Shown: in pieces, positions 3,938 through 35,578 of the stretch
Layout of the letters: each line of letters begins with the position of its first letter
How positions within the stretch are numbered: position 1 is the stretch's first letter
Source of the DNA: Nostoc sp. T09
Lineage (GTDB): Bacteria > Cyanobacteriota > Cyanobacteriia > Cyanobacteriales > Nostocaceae
Direction: 5' to 3'
Length of the DNA stretch: 35,578 nucleotides
NCBI RefSeq assembly: GCF_002154695.1
Contig: NZ_MTAV01000129.1
Coordinates: 1-35,578, forward strand
Notes under the pieces: model-generated
Told to the model about the DNA's origin: nothing
Database searches by the model: none
Seen by the model: the letters and a program-made list of their open reading frames with translations, nothing else
Program-made: the position numbers and the translations under genes

Positions 3938-6418
3938 ATGCGCCTTAATTATAAATTATTGTATTTTTTAAATATAAGTTTATTGGTAGGTTTAAGCTTA
4001 TTATCTTACCCAATTCTTGCTCAAGAAATTAATAAAAAAATCCAAAATGAGGAATTAGAAGAAATAGAAGAAATCCAAAGGGAGATGTTTTCTGAAGAAA
4101 ATTGCCGTAATAATTCTACGGTTTTTGAACAGCTAACACCAGAGGTTTCAAGAATATTTAAGGATTATTGTGATGCCGTTAAAAAAGGGAATTTTCCTAA
4201 AAATGTAAACGTATTAGATTTGCTGACAGGGGGAAATAATTCTCAAGTTTTAGAAGGTTATCATCAAGCTTTAGAAGATGCTAGAAGAACAGGTAATTTG
4301 CTTAAAGAAAGGCAAATACTTTCTTCAATTGCTATGGACTATGAGAAGAAACGCCAGTTTGCCAAATCCCTTGATTTTTACCAGCAAACTTTAACTGTTG
4401 CTAAAAAAATCAACGATAAGCAGGTAGAAGCCGAGACTCTGAACAGTATTGCTAGGCTATATGCACGTCGAGGTCAAAATGAACAAAGCATAGAATATTT
4501 AGAACGAAGTTTAGCAATTACTAAAGAAGAGTGGGGGGTAAGGAAGCAAAGATTGGGGTTAAGGTTAGATACTCTTAATCTAATGGGATTTATTTATCAA
4601 TCTCAAGCTCAGAATAATAAAGCTTTACAGGTTTATGAAAATGCTTTAGCTATTGCTAAAAGTGAAGTGATAGATCAGCTAAGCCAAGCAATGACAATAC
4701 GGGAATTTGGTAGATTTTATCAAAAGAAAGGAGAGTATAACAAAGCCTTGGGCTTATATCAACAACTTTTAACAATAGCTAAAAAAGATGATTATATTAA
4801 GTTATTGTCCCTTAAAAGTCTCGGCGACTTGTATGAAGTTCAAAAAAATTATCCGAAAGCTTTAGAGTTTTATGAACAAGCTGTAGCATTAGCTAAAAAA
4901 GATAATTTAAGCCTCTACTTAGGCTCAAGTTTAGCAGACGTTGGCAGAACTTATAACTATTTAAATCAATATACAGCAGCAGAACAAGTATTGAAAAAAG
5001 CTATTGATATAGGAGGATCTCAATATAAATTGACGCAAGAAGATTTGGACGAGCGAGGCTCTAGTATCTTAAGGAATCTCACTAATTCTGTAGAGCAGTT
5101 TATCCCCTTGCTTTATGAAACTGAGAAAAATGGTTATCAGGAATTACAAAGAGCATTGATTGCTCAAAATAAAACTAAAGCTGCCCTAGAAATTTCCGAA
5201 AAATCTAGAGCTAGAGCTTTTGCACAATTATTAACGCTAAAACTTGCCGCTTCAGGAAAGGCTGTTTCACACGAAAGTGCTGAAACAATAACTATTGAGC
5301 AAATGCAGCGTATTGCTAAAGAAAGAAAGGCTACATTGATTCAATACTCAATCCTCAAAAAGCCTATTCAGAATGGTATTCTTGAATATGGCATGGATAT
5401 TCCTAATCCACAGGCACAGGAAGATTTAGAATTGTTGATTTGGGTAATTAAGCCGAATGGTGAAATTGCATTTCGTCAAGTAGATTTAAAATCCATTAAT
5501 AATTCTGTTGGAGCATTAGTCAAAAATAGCCGAAATTCTATTTTACGAATGACTGTTGGGAAAAAATCTGCTGGAGCTTTAAAGAAACTACACCAACTTT
5601 TAATTGATCCTATCGCTAACGACTTACCGACTGATTCCAATGCTCATGTGATTTTTATTCCTGATGATTCTTTATTCCTTGTGCCTTTTGTCGCGCTTCA
5701 AGATGCACAGGGCAAGTATCTAATTGAAAAGCACACTATTTTGACCGCACCCGCCATCCGAGTGTTAGATTTAGTGCGTCAGCAACGACAAAAAGTAGCA
5801 GGTAAGGGTGCTTTAGTTGTGGGTAATCCAACGATGCCTTATTATGCTGAGCAATTAGGTGAAACACCCCAACAATTATCAGCATTACCGAATGCTGAGT
5901 TAGAAGCACAAGCGATCGCAAAGTTGTTGAATACACAACCGATTATCGGTAAGGAAGCGACCAAAGCGGCTATTATCCAACAAATGCCAAAGGCACGCAT
6001 AATTCATCTAGCAACACATGGGTTACTAGATCATTATGAAGGATTAGGAAGTGCGATCGCTCTTGCACCCTCAGCAAAAGATGATGGCTTCCTGACGGCT
6101 CAAGAACTTGTCGAAATGAAGCTGAATGCAGAATTAGTGGTTTTGAGTGCTTGTGACACTGGCAGAGGGGTAATTACAGGGGATGGAGTGATTGGTTTAT
6201 CTCGCTCTTTATTTGCCGCCGGAGTTCCTAGTATGGTTGTCTCTCTGTGGGCAGTGCCAGATGTACCGACATCTGTATTAATGATGGAATATTATCAGAG
6301 GCTACAAACCCAACCTGACAAAGCCCAAGCGTTACGCCAAGCCATGTTAGCAACGATCAAGAAACATCCTTCACCTCAAGATTGGGCAGCCTTTACACTG
6401 ATTGGTGAAGCTTTTTAA
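3938..6418 (+). CDS. Exported TPR-CHAT domain protein (caspase-like protease)
   Basis: An 826-residue protein. The hydrophobic start (LLYFLNISLLVGLSLLSYPI, ending ILA-Q) is a signal peptide. An acidic linker follows, then about six TPR units between residues ~110 and 360 (SLDFYQQTLTVAKKINDKQ, ALEFYEQAVALAKKDN and others). The C-terminal ~350 residues form a CHAT domain, the caspase/separase-like peptidase fold. The expected dyad is His694 in HLATHG and Cys739 in VVLSACDTG, followed by the conserved GVIGLSRSLFAAGVPS and VVSLWAVPD strands. AAGGA at 3925-3929 is a suitably spaced ribosome-binding site. Members of this family in filamentous cyanobacteria are numerous and mostly uncharacterised; peptidase activity is inferred from the intact dyad. 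The first half is clearly more AT-rich than the neighbouring genes. Confidence 0.88.
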   Translation: MRLNYKLLYFLNISLLVGLSLLSYPILAQEINKKIQNEELEEIEEIQREMFSEENCRNNSTVFEQLTPEVSRIFKDYCDAVKKGNFPKNVNVLDLLTGGNNSQVLEGYHQALEDARRTGNLLKERQILSSIAMDYEKKRQFAKSLDFYQQTLTVAKKINDKQVEAETLNSIARLYARRGQNEQSIEYLERSLAITKEEWGVRKQRLGLRLDTLNLMGFIYQSQAQNNKALQVYENALAIAKSEVIDQLSQAMTIREFGRFYQKKGEYNKALGLYQQLLTIAKKDDYIKLLSLKSLGDLYEVQKNYPKALEFYEQAVALAKKDNLSLYLGSSLADVGRTYNYLNQYTAAEQVLKKAIDIGGSQYKLTQEDLDERGSSILRNLTNSVEQFIPLLYETEKNGYQELQRALIAQNKTKAALEISEKSRARAFAQLLTLKLAASGKAVSHESAETITIEQMQRIAKERKATLIQYSILKKPIQNGILEYGMDIPNPQAQEDLELLIWVIKPNGEIAFRQVDLKSINNSVGALVKNSRNSILRMTVGKKSAGALKKLHQLLIDPIANDLPTDSNAHVIFIPDDSLFLVPFVALQDAQGKYLIEKHTILTAPAIRVLDLVRQQRQKVAGKGALVVGNPTMPYYAEQLGETPQQLSALPNAELEAQAIAKLLNTQPIIGKEATKAAIIQQMPKARIIHLATHGLLDHYEGLGSAIALAPSAKDDGFLTAQELVEMKLNAELVVLSACDTGRGVITGDGVIGLSRSLFAAGVPSMVVSLWAVPDVPTSVLMMEYYQRLQTQPDKAQALRQAMLATIKKHPSPQDWAAFTLIGEAF

Positions 6419-25673: not shown

Positions 25674-26552
25674 TCATTCTCGACTCCGGGGATAACGTTC
25701 CATTAAATTCCGCACTTGTTCTGCATGATATGAGCTTCTTGTTAGAGGAGAAGAAACTACTTGCAGAAATCCCAGTTCTTCGCCGAAGGCTTGCCAAGCG
25801 GCAAATTGTTCTGGGGTGATAAAATTATCTATTTTCAAGTGTTTTTGGCTGGGTTGGAGGTATTGCCCAATTGTCAAGATATCGCAATCCACGGCTCGCA
25901 AGTCTTGCATGACTTGACGAACTTCGGCATCAGTTTCACCGAGTCCTACCATGATTCCAGATTTAGTGTAGATCCAAGGAGCAATTTGGCGCGCTCGCAA
26001 AAGTAATTCCATTGTGCGATCGTAGTTACCTTGGGGACGCACACGGCGATATAGGCGCTGAATCGTTTCTGTATTGTGGTTTAACACTTCTGGTGCAGCT
26101 TGGATAATTATCTCTAGAGCATTCCAATTGCCGCACAAGTCAGGAATTAATACCTCAATTGTAGTTTTGGGCGAGACAGCGCGAACTGCTGCGATACACT
26201 GCACAAACTGAGATGCACCACCATCCGGTAAATCATCTCGGTTTACAGAGGTAATCACTACATGATTGAGGTTCATGCGGCGAACAGCCTCTGCCAATCG
26301 TTCTGGTTCCGTGGGGTCTAAAGGCTTGGGCTTTTTTTCAAAATCTATATCGCAGTAGGGACAGGCACGGGTACAAGCTGGTCCCATAATCAAAAACGTG
26401 GCAGTACCAGCTTGGAAACACTCACCAATATTCGGACAGGACGCTTCCTCACAAACCGTATTGAGCGCTAAATCCCGCAAAATTTCTTTAACGTTACCGA
26501 CGCGCTCCCACTGAGGCGCTTTCACCCGCAACCAGTCTGGTTTAACAGTCAC
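25674..26552 (-). CDS. lipA: Lipoyl synthase
   Basis: A 292-residue radical-SAM enzyme that inserts two sulphurs into protein-bound octanoyl groups. Both iron-sulphur motifs are present: the auxiliary cluster in [12 protein letters not shown] (near residue 34) and the radical-SAM CxxxCxxC in [11 protein letters not shown] (near 60). [11 protein letters not shown] and the C-terminal RSSYHAEQ, with the conserved serine cluster ligand, complete the family pattern. Length is normal. It lies 57-72 bases upstream of gpsA on the same strand, depending on the gpsA start, so they may be co-transcribed across the repeat tract. Cyanobacteria often carry two lipA copies; this window cannot tell whether it is the only one. 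Confidence 0.96.
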
Positions 26553-26655: not shown

Positions 26656-26672
26656 TATCACTTGGTGTGATA
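26656..26672. promoter_or_regulatory. Short palindrome upstream of tRNA-Pro
   Basis: TATCAC (26656-26661) and GTGATA (26667-26672) form a perfect 6-bp inverted repeat around TTGGT, 28 bases before the tRNA gene. It could be an operator or promoter-adjacent site; there is no direct evidence for a regulator. Confidence 0.3.
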
Positions 26673-26699
26673 TTTTGGATATATAGTGCCGTTTTTCGG

Positions 26700-26773
26700 C
26701 GGGATGTGGCGCAGCTTGGTAGCGCACTTCGTTCGGGACGAAGGGGCCGCTGGTTCGAATCCAGTCATCCCGA
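26700..26773 (+). tRNA. tRNA-Pro (anticodon CGG)
   Basis: A 74-base cloverleaf. Acceptor arms CGGGATG (26700-26706) and CATCCCG (26766-26772) pair fully, with discriminator A at 26773. The D arm is GCGC-AGCTTGGTA-GCGC, the anticodon stem CTTCG/CGAAG encloses the loop TTCGGGA (anticodon CGG, reading CCG), and the T arm CTGG-TTCGAAT-CCAG is canonical. The 3' CCA is not encoded. The hsdM-like reading frame begins directly at the 3' end, which makes this tRNA a likely integration or recombination boundary. Confidence 0.95.
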
Positions 26774-26852
26774 TTCTTTTGATGAGCTACGGTTTAGATC
26801 GCAACAGGAGAAACAGGAGCTATCGCATCTCTATGAGGCGAAAATCAAAAAT

Positions 26853-27866
26853 ATGGGTAATGCAGGGCGTAATGGGGGTGAGTATTACACGCCGCGTCCG
26901 TTGATTCGGGCAATCATTCAGGTGGTGAAGCCGAAGATTGGGGATCGCATTTATGATGGTGCTTGTGGTTCGGCAGGGTTTTTGTGCGAGAGTTACGACT
27001 ATTTACGTCGGGGTAAGCTGACAACAAAAGAGCTTGAGATACTTCAAAAACATACGTTTACGGGTAAAGAAAAGAAAAGTTTGGCGTATGTGATTGCCAT
27101 CATGAATATGATTTTGCATGGCATTGATGCGCCGAATATTATCCACACGAACACGCTGACAGAAAATCTCAGTGATATTCAAGACAAGAATCGTTTTGAT
27201 GTCATCTTGGCTAATCCACCATTTGGGGGGAAGGAACGCAAGGAAGTACAGCAGAATTTCCCGATAAAAACTGGGGAAACGGCGTTTCTGTTTTTGCAGC
27301 ATTTCATCAAAATGCTGAAGATAGGCGGTAGGGCGGCAGTAGTAATCAAAAATACGTTCCTGTCAAATTCTGATAATGCTTCGCGGGCTTTGCGCCAAGA
27401 GCTTTTGAGTAGTTGCAATCTGCACACCATTTTAGATTGTCCGAGTGGGACTTTTATCGGGGCGGGTGTAAAAACGGTGGTGCTGTTTTTTGAGAAAGGA
27501 AAGTCTTTCGATGCCGTTCAGGGAACGCCTTTATTTTCTCAAGGAAAATCTTTAACTCAGGGAATGGCAACTCAGAAAATTTGGTATTATCAACTCGATC
27601 CGGGGCGTAGTTTGGGTAAAACTAATGCGTTAAATGATGAGGATTTGCAAGAATTTGTAGAGTTACAGGCTACGTTTGCAGAGTCGGAAAAGTCTTGGCT
27701 GGTGGATATTGCTGATGTGGATCGGGAGACGTTTGATTTATCGGTGAAGAATCCAAATAAAGCTGAGGAATCACCGTTAAGAGAACCGCAGGAAATTTTG
27801 GATGAAATTGCTGCTTTGGATGCGGAGAGTGCAGAGATTTTGGCGGGGATTGGGGAAATGTTATGA
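26853..27866 (+). CDS. hsdM: HsdM-like DNA methyltransferase, N-terminally truncated at the tRNA
   Basis: An adenine-N6 DNA methyltransferase of a Type I-like system. The N6_Mtase domain has SAM motif DGACGSAGFL (from Asp35) and catalytic NPPF (from Asn121). The first ATG after the tRNA, 26853, gives 337 residues. Family-like sequence (DELRFRSQQEKQELSHLYEA) begins just after the tRNA 3' end at about 26777, in the same frame but without a start codon of its own. The helical HsdM N-terminal domain (usually 100-150 residues) is missing; full-length HsdM is commonly 450-550 residues. The open frame continues back through the tRNA to 26667, but that part only translates the tRNA. It is either a broken gene or a shortened functional one. 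The stop overlaps hsdS by four bases. Confidence 0.75.
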   Translation: MGNAGRNGGEYYTPRPLIRAIIQVVKPKIGDRIYDGACGSAGFLCESYDYLRRGKLTTKELEILQKHTFTGKEKKSLAYVIAIMNMILHGIDAPNIIHTNTLTENLSDIQDKNRFDVILANPPFGGKERKEVQQNFPIKTGETAFLFLQHFIKMLKIGGRAAVVIKNTFLSNSDNASRALRQELLSSCNLHTILDCPSGTFIGAGVKTVVLFFEKGKSFDAVQGTPLFSQGKSLTQGMATQKIWYYQLDPGRSLGKTNALNDEDLQEFVELQATFAESEKSWLVDIADVDRETFDLSVKNPNKAEESPLREPQEILDEIAALDAESAEILAGIGEML

Positions 27867-32757: not shown

Positions 32758-33126
32758 ATGATTACTCTTCCACCAGAGGAAATTAGTCAGTTTCGCAGCC
32801 AGTTGGCGGATCTTCCCCAGGCTTTAGTAGCTTTGGATGCCATAGAAGAGTGTGAAGGCTATTTAGACGATGCTGTTCCACTGCTGGTTATGCGGGAAAC
32901 TGCACAGGAACCAGATAAATCGTTAAATGATTTGCTTGAAAAATGCCGTCAATTCATTTGTCAAGAGGAAGTCAGAGAATTTTTGGAATCTGGATTAATT
33001 GCTCCAATTGTAGAACCATTGGCTGTTAGTGCAGGCATTCCTCTGGGTACTGCGACTGCACTTAGCATATTGGTGTTTAAACTAGGTGCGAGAAAGTTTT
33101 GTAACGTACCGGAATCGGGTGCTTAA
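32758..33126 (+). CDS. Small hypothetical protein, convergent with CHAT gene
   Basis: A 122-residue acidic, helical protein (MITLPPEEISQFRSQLADLP, ALVALDAIEECEGYLDDAVP). The C-terminal third is hydrophobic (IAPIVEPLAVSAGIPLGTAT followed by ALSILVFKLGARKFC) and could be a membrane-associated or amphipathic segment. I do not recognise a family. Its stop codon overlaps the stop of the opposing CHAT-TPR gene by three bases, so both genes end on each other. That tight arrangement may reflect a shared history with the CHAT gene, but co-regulation is not shown. Start at ATG 32758. Confidence 0.65.
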   Translation: MITLPPEEISQFRSQLADLPQALVALDAIEECEGYLDDAVPLLVMRETAQEPDKSLNDLLEKCRQFICQEEVREFLESGLIAPIVEPLAVSAGIPLGTATALSILVFKLGARKFCNVPESGA

Positions 33127-35578
33127 AGCCCAGATGCTGTAAATCCAGCCCAGTAGTAGGGATTTGCAAAAGGTAGGGGTTGACGTTGCTTAATTAGTTT
33201 CAAAGATTCTTGAAATATGATACGTTGTCCTACTCTTAGTTGAGCAAGGACTGTTTCAATTTTGGCTTTGTGTTCCTCTAAAAATTTGTCTAATTCTTCA
33301 ATAGTCAGATTTCGCAGCCAGTTTTGAGCTTGTTTCAGGGCGATCGCAATATCTCCTGCTTCCAGGTTATCAAGTTTGAATAATTTGAATAAGTTTTCGT
33401 AGAATTTAATCATTAAAAAGCTGGTGGAAAGGTCATCTACTTTCCAGAGTGAACTAATGACACAGGGACTACCTGCTAATAGAAAACCACTAGGTAAACC
33501 AATATATTCGTCACTGGTATTGTAAAAATCAATCAATCCAGTTTCGCACGCGGAAAGGGTGACGAGGCGACATTTATCTAATTTGAGAGTGAAGATTTTA
33601 TCCAAAGTAAGGCATTTGTCTAAATCGTTGGTTTCCCCTGCTCGCACATTCAGATAACGTTCGGAATCGGTTTTTTTTGGTGTGTCTGCGATAGGCGCAT
33701 CTGCCAAAATTAGGGCTGATTTATCGGCGTTTGTGAAGTTAAAATAACCGTGACAGCTAAAATGAGCGCAGTGGTAAGTATTTAAATCAGAATTATTAAT
33801 TGCTGTAAGTGTCGCTGCTGTTTTTTTCAGGACATTAGCAGTATTAAAGTAGCTTTGAATAACTTGTACTTCTAGATCTGTATAGTTTAAATCGCCTGCG
33901 GGGTTTTGAATCGCAAACAGGGATTGGAAATCAGGACGTTTGCGCTGTTGTACCTGTTGCAGTAGTTGACAACTGGGTGCATAACTCACACCACCAGCAA
34001 ATAAATCTAGAAGACAGCGCGAATTTTCAGCACTGTGATTGACTGGGAGTGCATGAAGGGGTAATAAGTGCAAGAACTGATGGGGAATTAGGATGAGTTG
34101 ATCGCAGTGCTTTGGTATCTGGTTTAATATTTCATCAATGTGCAGAATTGAGGCTAATTCTTTGAGTGATTTTCCTAAGCTATTAAGCCATTGTTGTTTT
34201 TGCTCATAGTAGTTTTGTAAATATTTATCTATCCAATTAAACAAAGCTTCTAAATCTTCTGGTTGAGATTGCCAAACTGTTACCTCTCTTGTTTTTGTGA
34301 GAATAAAAGCCAGAATTTTGTCGTTGATAATATACCATTCAATAATGGCTGTATACTCATTTAAAGTAGGCTGAAATGAGCCAAAGTTGAAACCATAACC
34401 AACAGGTAAGTAGGTATTTTGTAATTCATTACGCTGTTGTCGCAACTCTTGGAGATGTTGTGCGAGGACTTTAAGATTTTCAGCTTTGCCATTTTGGATT
34501 TGATATTGTCCTACGGCTATTTCATCTCTATATTTTTCTAATTGAGTGAATACTTCTGGAGGGAAAATGGTTTTAGAGTCGCGTTCGAGGATTTGTTCAA
34601 CTAAATTGCGAGTTTTACTACGTTCAACATATTCAATTGCTTCGGTAATCTTATTTAATTCCCTGCAAACTTCTACCATGCGGCTATAAACTTGGTTAAA
34701 GTGTTCCGCTTGTTTGCGTTTGCTTTCTTCTCCAGATACTATTTCTTCTCGCAAAGATTCTATAGTGGCAATGGCAGACTCAAAAGTATTGTATGCTAGG
34801 TCAAGCTTGTTTGCGTCTTGGTAAGTTATTCCCAGTCCAAACAATGTTTCTGCATGGTTTTCAGGCAAAGCTTCTCTGGTGTAGACAGTTAAAGCAGCAG
34901 TAGAAGCAGCGATCGCCTGTTCGATGTTATCTGCCCTGTCTCCTTTAATTCTATCCCTGTAGGCATTTGCGAGATTATTTTGCGTTCCTGCCCAAGATTG
35001 AGGCAAAGCTTCTCTGGTGTAGAGAGCTAAAGCAGCAGTACAAGCAGCGATTGCTTTTTCGATGTTATCTGCCCTGTATCCTTTAATTCTATCCCTGTAG
35101 GCAGTTGCGAGATTATTTTGCGTCATTGCCCAAGATTGAGGCAAAGCTTCTCTGGTGTAGACAGTTAAAGCAGCAGTATAAGCAGCGATTGCTTTTTCGA
35201 TATTATCTGCCCTGTCTCCTTTAATTCTATCGCTGTAGGCAAGTCCGAGATTATTTTGCGTTGCTGCCCAAGATTGAGGCAAAGCTTCTCTGGTGTGGAC
35301 AGTTAAAGCCGCAGTATAAGCAGCGATTGCTTTTTCGATATTATCTGCTCTGTCTCCTTTGATTCTATAGCTGTAGGCATTTGCGAGATTGTTTTGCGTC
35401 ATTGCCCAATCTTGAGGCAAAGCTTCTCTGGTTCTGACAGTTAAAGCCGCAGTAAAAGCCGCGATCGCTTTTTCGATGTTATCTGCTCTGTCTCCTTTGA
35501 TTCTCTGTCTGTAGGCAATTGCGAGATTATTTTGCGTTGCTGCCCAATCTTGAGGCAAAGCTTCTCTGGTTCTGACAG
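33123..35578 (-). CDS. CHAT-TPR protein, 5' end outside the window
   Basis: The open frame runs off the right edge, so the true start is not visible; at least 817 codons are present. The N-terminal part visible consists of 46-residue TPR-like units (pattern REALPQxWAxTQNNLAxAYxxRIKGDRADNIEKA), five complete copies and part of a sixth, nearly identical in DNA (138-bp period). A coiled/TPR linker follows, then a C-terminal CHAT peptidase-like domain with the dyad His in HFSCHGYF (codon 33750-33752) and Cys in LSACETG (codon 33546-33548). There is no signal peptide in the visible part. It is probably a cytoplasmic caspase-like sensor or effector; activity is inferred. Confidence 0.88.
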   Translation of the reverse strand, partial: VRTREALPQDWAATQNNLAIAYRQRIKGDRADNIEKAIAAFTAALTVRTREALPQDWAMTQNNLANAYSYRIKGDRADNIEKAIAAYTAALTVHTREALPQSWAATQNNLGLAYSDRIKGDRADNIEKAIAAYTAALTVYTREALPQSWAMTQNNLATAYRDRIKGYRADNIEKAIAACTAALALYTREALPQSWAGTQNNLANAYRDRIKGDRADNIEQAIAASTAALTVYTREALPENHAETLFGLGITYQDANKLDLAYNTFESAIATIESLREEIVSGEESKRKQAEHFNQVYSRMVEVCRELNKITEAIEYVERSKTRNLVEQILERDSKTIFPPEVFTQLEKYRDEIAVGQYQIQNGKAENLKVLAQHLQELRQQRNELQNTYLPVGYGFNFGSFQPTLNEYTAIIEWYIINDKILAFILTKTREVTVWQSQPEDLEALFNWIDKYLQNYYEQKQQWLNSLGKSLKELASILHIDEILNQIPKHCDQLILIPHQFLHLLPLHALPVNHSAENSRCLLDLFAGGVSYAPSCQLLQQVQQRKRPDFQSLFAIQNPAGDLNYTDLEVQVIQSYFNTANVLKKTAATLTAINNSDLNTYHCAHFSCHGYFNFTNADKSALILADAPIADTPKKTDSERYLNVRAGETNDLDKCLTLDKIFTLKLDKCRLVTLSACETGLIDFYNTSDEYIGLPSGFLLAGSPCVISSLWKVDDLSTSFLMIKFYENLFKLFKLDNLEAGDIAIALKQAQNWLRNLTIEELDKFLEEHKAKIETVLAQLRVGQRIIFQESLKLIKQRQPLPFANPYYWAGFTASGL
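34865..35578 (-). repeat. 138-bp in-frame tandem repeats in CHAT-TPR gene
   Basis: The marker GCAAAGCTTCTCTGGT recurs at 34865, 35003, 35141, 35279, 35417 and 35555, an exact 138-bp period (46 codons). Copies are nearly identical at DNA level, showing recent expansion or gene conversion. The array continues past the window edge, so the copy number is unknown. It would be prone to slippage and misassembly. Confidence 0.9.

Follow-up and report, generated by a model that had tools for sequence, protein, structure and literature searches.

A truncated hsdM gene beside tRNA-Pro in Nostoc sp. T09, probably the cut cargo of a decayed type V-K CAST

Why does the hsdM gene of a type I restriction operon in Nostoc sp. 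T09 begin abruptly at the end of a tRNA gene? The stretch of DNA analysed here (the window, 35,578 nt) is the complete contig C75 of the 8.25-Mb draft genome of this strain (G000, 270 contigs). The original prediction, made from the letters of the window, was that hsdM starts abruptly at the 3' end of tRNA-Pro and lacks its N-terminal domain. Both statements are borne out: the tRNA ends at 26773 and hsdM sequence runs from 26779, and in the Pfam search the 362-aa HsdM fragment matches N6_Mtase (PF02384, E 1.9e-60) and has no HsdM_N. Five bases (26774-26778) separate the last base of the tRNA from the hsdM identity; at the DNA level, identity to intact alleles starts at T26779, with GAT at 26781 as the first full codon, and similarity to the HsdM protein is found only from DELRF onward (codon 143/144 of a 504-codon gene). 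The reading frame is open across tRNA-Pro, where the ORF caller puts its start at the GTG at 26667, and the first in-frame ATG of the fragment is at 26853. The tRNA-Pro gene itself is retained whole beside the truncated gene. As argued below, the window very probably contains cargo from a type V-K CAST in decay, whose left end and hsdM codons 1-143 were lost by deletion. The features discussed are collected in Table 1.

Table 1. Features of the window (contig C75) and of contig C120, with the basis of each assignment.
Feature	Position	Strand	Basis or remark
Lipoyl synthase-like gene (radical SAM), chromosomal flank beyond the tRNA	25674-26552	-	Pfam Radical_SAM and LIAS_N
tRNA-Pro (CGG)	26700-26773	+	ARAGORN
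GTA PAM (26719-26721) and 17-nt anchor protospacer (26722-26738) in the tRNA	26719-26738	+	Identical 17-mer in CASTs of relatives
Junction	26774-26781	+	5 nt of tRNA flank, then hsdM; TG 26780-26781 at the expected CAST left-end start
hsdM without codons 1-143 (type I restriction M subunit)	26779-27866	+	Pfam; alignment to intact relatives
hsdS, specificity subunit, 415 aa	27863-29110	+	Pfam Methylase_S, two stretches
DUF1016/YhcG nuclease-domain gene, 348 aa	29107-30153	+	Pfam PF17761 and PF06250; PADLOC PDC-S02
hsdR, EcoAI/FtnUII-type R subunit, 785 aa	30153-32510	+	NF046051, 844 bits (cut-off 550); Pfam
122-aa cargo ORF	32758-33126	+	ORF list; no Pfam family
TPR-CHAT gene, C-terminal part, leaves the contig and continues on C120	33123-35578	-	Pfam CHAT and TPR
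Cro/C1-type regulator	C120 970-1230		
100-aa ORF	C120, between Cro/C1-type regulator and tniQ		
tniQ	C120 1827-2336		Best solved relative a ShCAST-type PDB chain, E 1.1e-66
tnsC	C120 2371-3177		Best solved relative a ShCAST-type PDB chain, E 3.2e-62
tnsB	C120 3181-5142		Best solved relative a ShCAST-type PDB chain, E 1.2e-168
Right end with repeated TnsB-like sites	C120 ~5160-5406	Terminus TGTAG on the other strand	By eye

The segment absent from the window is an ordinary component of the protein. In an intact relative the 143 residues upstream of the corresponding point carry HsdM_N (PF12161, E 2.2e-10, above cut-off). Among solved structures the closest, 5ybb, aligns from residue 11, which places the lost part within the regular fold. 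Of the best 80 of at least 542 confirmed related loci, 78 have these 143 residues; in the remaining two (L009 and L034) the match starts 222 and 65 bases, respectively, into the contig, which makes them not judgeable. It had also been suggested that the missing 5' half of hsdM sits elsewhere, near a partial copy of tRNA-Pro. Neither was found in the draft assembly, from which, at 270 contigs, a stretch may be missing: a search with the 143 N-terminal residues (without its own positive control) gave nothing at E up to 1, and PF12161, a profile that does recognise the missing N-terminus, detects in G000 just one other hsdM, on contig C97, while 9 of 14 control genomes are positive. The proposal that the tRNA 3' end served as an integrase attachment site fared no better. 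Its 21-mer recurs in the genome (up to two mismatches) solely in the tRNA-Pro (TGG) gene, that is, another tRNA-Pro gene, and its 15-mer occurs within the window, with up to three mismatches, only in tRNA-Pro itself; with no tRNA 3' repeat at the far side, an integrase att repeat was rejected. Among the 14 of the 40 listed window ORFs that were scanned there is no recombinase gene.

A way to understand this boundary is to look at the same locus in the relatives, as had been proposed from the start, and here the intact operon is found behind the same tRNA. The DNA of the junction was searched in 58 genomes, G000 among them. The intact hsdM point corresponding to the junction lies ~0.7 kb (G001, same genus) and ~0.8 kb (G016, taken as the same as L005, LEGE 11386) after the same tRNA-Pro, with hsdM codons 1-143 present in between. 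The lipoyl synthase-like neighbour of the tRNA is 92-96% identical in G001, G016 and (partial) L004. In L004 (Nostoc sp. FACHB-152) the operon is the cargo of a V-K CAST: tRNA-Pro is followed by the CAST left end, a 17-nt anchor spacer, cas12k (minus strand; NF038191, E 9.5e-286) and, last, the intact hsdM operon. The anchor spacer is a 17-nt stretch behind the repeat end GGGTTGAAAG, identical to part of tRNA-Pro, and the same 17-mer stands behind GGGTTGAAAG in the CASTs of L107, L118 and L123. The element of L004 resembles the window in its tRNA-Pro and in its HsdM (96% identical), DUF1016 protein (98%) and HsdR (93%), but it has a complete left part with cas12k and a full-length hsdM, and its HsdS differs (39% identical over 351 residues).

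CASTs locate a tRNA via an RNA guide and use TnsB ends. The CAST ends in the relatives were first recognised as such and afterwards checked by matches to Cas12k and Tns proteins. Left ends of the type TGTACATTCGCAAATTA..TGTCG, or a variant, follow tRNA-Pro in 11 of 17 relative loci when read by eye (L004, L107, L108 and L118-L125), a count that excludes L109 and L113, where the end pattern matched TGTAG alone, and the doubtful L106; L111 is unmatched by the tRNA pattern. A match of the anchor spacer was identified in six of 14 distinct loci (L112, the same place as L008, being counted once). Specifically, the anchors of L004, L107, L118 and L123 correspond to tRNA-Pro and that of L011 to tRNA-Thr (17 nt each), and that of L008 to tRNA-Ala (14 nt). 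No anchor match was seen in the other eight (L012, L106, L119, L120, L121, L122, L124 and L125), so not every end need be RNA-guided. Within the fetched flanks, cas12k appears beside hsdM in four of the best 80 of at least 542 loci (L004, L006, L008 and L011). These arrangements are those of the published V-K CAST layout, with the left end after the tRNA, an anchor spacer usually of 17 nt, a GTN PAM 46-82 nt from the left end and the cargo between cas12k and tniQ, restriction-modification systems being common cargo (PMC9938897). Such genes have also been counted in 947 Tn7-like transposons in another study (PMC8649781). Two further loci gave minor observations. In L015 (Nostoc mirabile, 4410-4600) an intact hsdM starts 87 nt after tRNA-Ala and no CAST left end was seen between them; here the left part may have been lost independently. 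In L006 (143-3980) a CAST end and cas12k are directly preceded by a tnsB in the same orientation, 48% identical to its C120 counterpart, which may mean that two CASTs stand in tandem.

The rest of the element appears to lie on contig C120. An exact 46-bp overlap joins the two contigs (window 35533-35578 with C120 1-46), a 46-mer present nowhere else in G000 (up to two mismatches), and the two parts of the TPR-CHAT gene are in one frame, since window base 35576 falls on C120 base 44 and 761-44 is a multiple of 3. The adjacency of C75 and C120 is thus likely on sequence grounds. Starting from the right end, ShCAST-like tnsB, tnsC and tniQ follow in that order, and gene order and orientation on C120 match a V-K CAST with a predicted left end at tRNA-Pro. 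The matches of these Tns proteins in the PDB include chains named ShTnsC and ShTniQ, and chain 7svw, which we take to be from ShCAST. TniQ was found once in G000, the same search being positive in none of 14 control genomes. Cas12k gave no match to NF038191 in G000 (above cut-off in 9 of the 14 genomes searched), so it is from the tns genes and the relatives that the element is assigned to type V-K. Likewise, no anchor spacer was detected in the window or in the genome with up to three mismatches, and no TnsB-like sites in the window, where the place of the left end is taken by hsdM. Compared with ShCAST and AnCAST (PMC9938897), the tRNA at the left-end side, the restriction-modification cargo and the order and orientation of tniQ-tnsC-tnsB toward the right end are alike; in contrast, the left end, anchor spacer, CRISPR array and cas12k were not found here, the first cargo gene is truncated and the right end lies in another locus. 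The TPR-CHAT gene (window 33123-35578, C120 1-761) breaks the assembly of G000, and in the relative G005 two contigs likewise end inside the TPR coding of a TPR-CHAT-type gene.

These observations taken together suggest the following history. The left end of a CAST carrying an hsdM-hsdS-DUF1016-hsdR operon would have followed closely on tRNA-Pro (CGG), where, judging from the relatives, an anchor guide matching the tRNA would have placed it. A later deletion would then have extended from the transposon left end to hsdM codon 143, removing the left end and codons 1-143, with the anchor spacer, CRISPR array and cas12k lost in the same event or earlier. The loss would amount to between ~0.7 kb (from an ancestor like G001, which is without cas12k) and ~4.3 kb (from one like L004), and the element would continue on C120 with the regulator, tniQ, tnsC, tnsB and the right end. 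It is the intact order in the relatives, the lost parts not found in G000 and the tns genes on C120 that point to a decayed V-K CAST, with a deletion as the likely causal event. The element should be immobile by itself, because cas12k, the guide and the left end are gone. The original prediction had tied the restriction operon to an integration or deletion event at the tRNA; this survives as a tRNA-targeting mobile element cut by a deletion, and the integrase part of it does not.

The position of the junction fits this reading. The distance from the PAM to the TG at the junction is 58 nt. In 11 relatives the left ends lie 53-64 nt from the PAM, measured with an end pattern drawn up after the ends had been read by eye; so the deletion would begin at, or a few bases from, the expected position of the lost CAST terminus. 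In the alignment both sides of the junction have TG or TTG in common. We also considered whether a pseudo-end within hsdM could serve as the left end, and rejected it: scored as a CAST end, the hsdM side of the junction gives -7.4 (rank 24 of 119 TG positions and 78 of 1482 positions) and is not end-like.

A more complicated picture is obtained from the right end. At C120 5406 it interrupts a response-regulator gene at about residue 106, a gene that is intact (224 aa) in G016 and that adjoins a phosphorylase-family gene. Neither the rest of the regulator nor the next gene (as in G005) has an orthologue in G000, where the best protein match is a 65% identical paralogue and the best DNA matches cover 175 and 69 bases. 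In G001, G002, G006, G007 and G012, between 0.46 and several Mb separate the phosphorylase locus from tRNA-Pro (3.45 versus 4.80 Mb in G001, 6.35 versus 3.04 in G006 and 1.89 versus 2.35 in G012), so one element seems to join two loci, i.e. to have chimeric flanks. Since the right end is not at the other flank of tRNA-Pro, a simple insertion plus a deletion is insufficient for everything. Along these lines, a simple insertion at tRNA-Pro with target duplication was rejected, as the 5-bp GCACC beside the right end is absent at the tRNA-Pro edge. The regulator-phosphorylase pair as native neighbour of tRNA-Pro was rejected too, being present in none of the 20 loci L106-L125 (16 around tRNA-Pro), in several of which CASTs may hide it. 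Chimeric flanks would be expected from replicative intramolecular transposition or from recombination between CASTs; V-K elements are without TnsA, and their replicative transposition produces cointegrates and may cause rearrangements (PMC11406308). As a separate observation, the same response-regulator gene has in G005 (L143, 1742-2100) an internal deletion spanning the point of the G000 right end.

As to how the left part was lost, we lean slightly towards an ordinary deletion by illegitimate recombination with no link to transposition, its left edge set by the need of the cell for the tRNA. The TG or TTG common to both sides would be enough for chance end joining, and the hsdM side ranks, as said, only 24th among the TG positions; however, if the left edge had fallen at random within the lost 0.7-4.3 kb, it would seldom hit the expected terminus, a coincidence that is a single case, chosen for looking exact, and no fair test. 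It is attractive to think of a break at the transposon end that led to loss into the cargo; a chance deletion sparing the tRNA is at least as likely. Quite possible, if short of probable, is that a CAST whose right end lay in the response-regulator gene was directed by its guide to tRNA-Pro and underwent replicative intramolecular transposition, the left end being lost then or later (or, as a variant, that two CASTs recombined in the repetitive TPR-CHAT gene). The right end inside a regulator gene that is whole in G016, the rest of this gene and the next one without orthologue in G000, the separation of the phosphorylase gene from tRNA-Pro by at least 0.46 Mb in five relatives and the replicative character of V-K elements (PMC11406308) all agree with it, but the C75-C120 join is itself deduced, there is no second copy in the assembly (TniQ occurs once), and in G005 a different V-K tns set (TnsB 46% identical) stands near this locus while a separate contig has the same cargo, which makes for a more tangled history. 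A particular form of it, in which guided replicative intramolecular transposition to tRNA-Pro was followed by faulty left-end repair joining over TG/TTG and destroying cas12k and hsdM, we regard as rather unlikely; if true, the element would be frozen there, a natural record of the risk of rearrangement by a CAST without TnsA.

Much less credible is an assembly error at the junction, a concern in a draft of 270 contigs: with just 2-3 bases shared by the two sides, a false overlap could hardly have formed, and nowhere in the assembly were the lost parts found. Least of all can we believe in an excisable element of the nifD/fdxN/hupL type, with the 5' half of hsdM elsewhere and rejoined by a recombinase. 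The exact edge at the tRNA is what would recommend it, and the nifD-type excision elements of heterocystous cyanobacteria also cut a gene at a sharp edge; here, in contrast, the HsdM N-terminus was not found in the draft assembly, there is no repeat of at least 12 nt between the tRNA region and the downstream window, and the gene is uninterrupted at this point in 78 of the best 80 of at least 542 relatives. Without a second half of hsdM and an edge repeat, this candidate was rejected.

Within the history of a decayed V-K CAST, the deletion was probably recent. The dN/dS of the hsdM fragment versus seven intact alleles, picked by hand among the nearest, is 0.053-0.091, and 0.052-0.106 among those seven; private amino-acid changes number 3 in the window HsdM and 1-7 in the intact alleles. 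Relaxed selection on the fragment was therefore not seen, both measures being like those of intact alleles, which counts against an old dead gene; so the deletion would be recent, or the fragment still useful. The reading frames of hsdS, the DUF1016 gene and hsdR are all open. Of the components of a type I restriction-modification system, HsdS and HsdR are present and a complete HsdM with its N-terminal domain is absent, and the system is probably inactive because its M subunit is without HsdM_N. When compared with type I systems having an EcoAI/FtnUII-like HsdR (NF046051), the hsdM-hsdS-hsdR order and the Methylase_S and R-subunit domains are alike, whereas the M subunit of the window lacks HsdM_N and a DUF1016 gene lies between hsdS and hsdR.

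A decayed V-K CAST is of a known kind; the interest here lies in the chimeric flanks. Elements sharing this restriction cargo form a decay series of which the odd hsdM start is one stage: the left part is complete in L004 and L008, the left end is kept and cas12k is gone between tRNA and hsdM in L005, and in the window the left end is gone together with the 5' part of the cargo, the restriction cargo probably being disabled along with its transposon. If true in a finished genome, the chimeric flanks would be natural evidence of the effects of replicative V-K CASTs on the chromosome and would bear on their use as editing tools. A literature search in one library with limited terms found neither a description of this remnant nor work linking Cas12k with hsdM.

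Further observations concern G005, a close relative. One of its loci (L164, 8275-11457) has a V-K tns set beside the same XRE, 100-aa and TPR-CHAT genes, with TnsB, TnsC and TniQ 46%, 36% and 75% identical to those of C120. On another contig (L165, 3819-11884) a degenerate cas12k, DUF1016, a shortened hsdR, a 122-aa ORF and TPR-CHAT are found, this 122-aa ORF occupying the same place in this decayed CAST as in the window. Cargo seems to have been exchanged between CAST lineages. The DUF1016/YhcG gene (the PADLOC candidate PDC-S02) is located between hsdS and hsdR in L004, L006 and G001 as well. Lastly, the HsdS of the window is only 39-45% identical to that of most relatives (71% to that of G001) although their HsdM is ~95% identical, indicating that the specificity subunit changes much faster.
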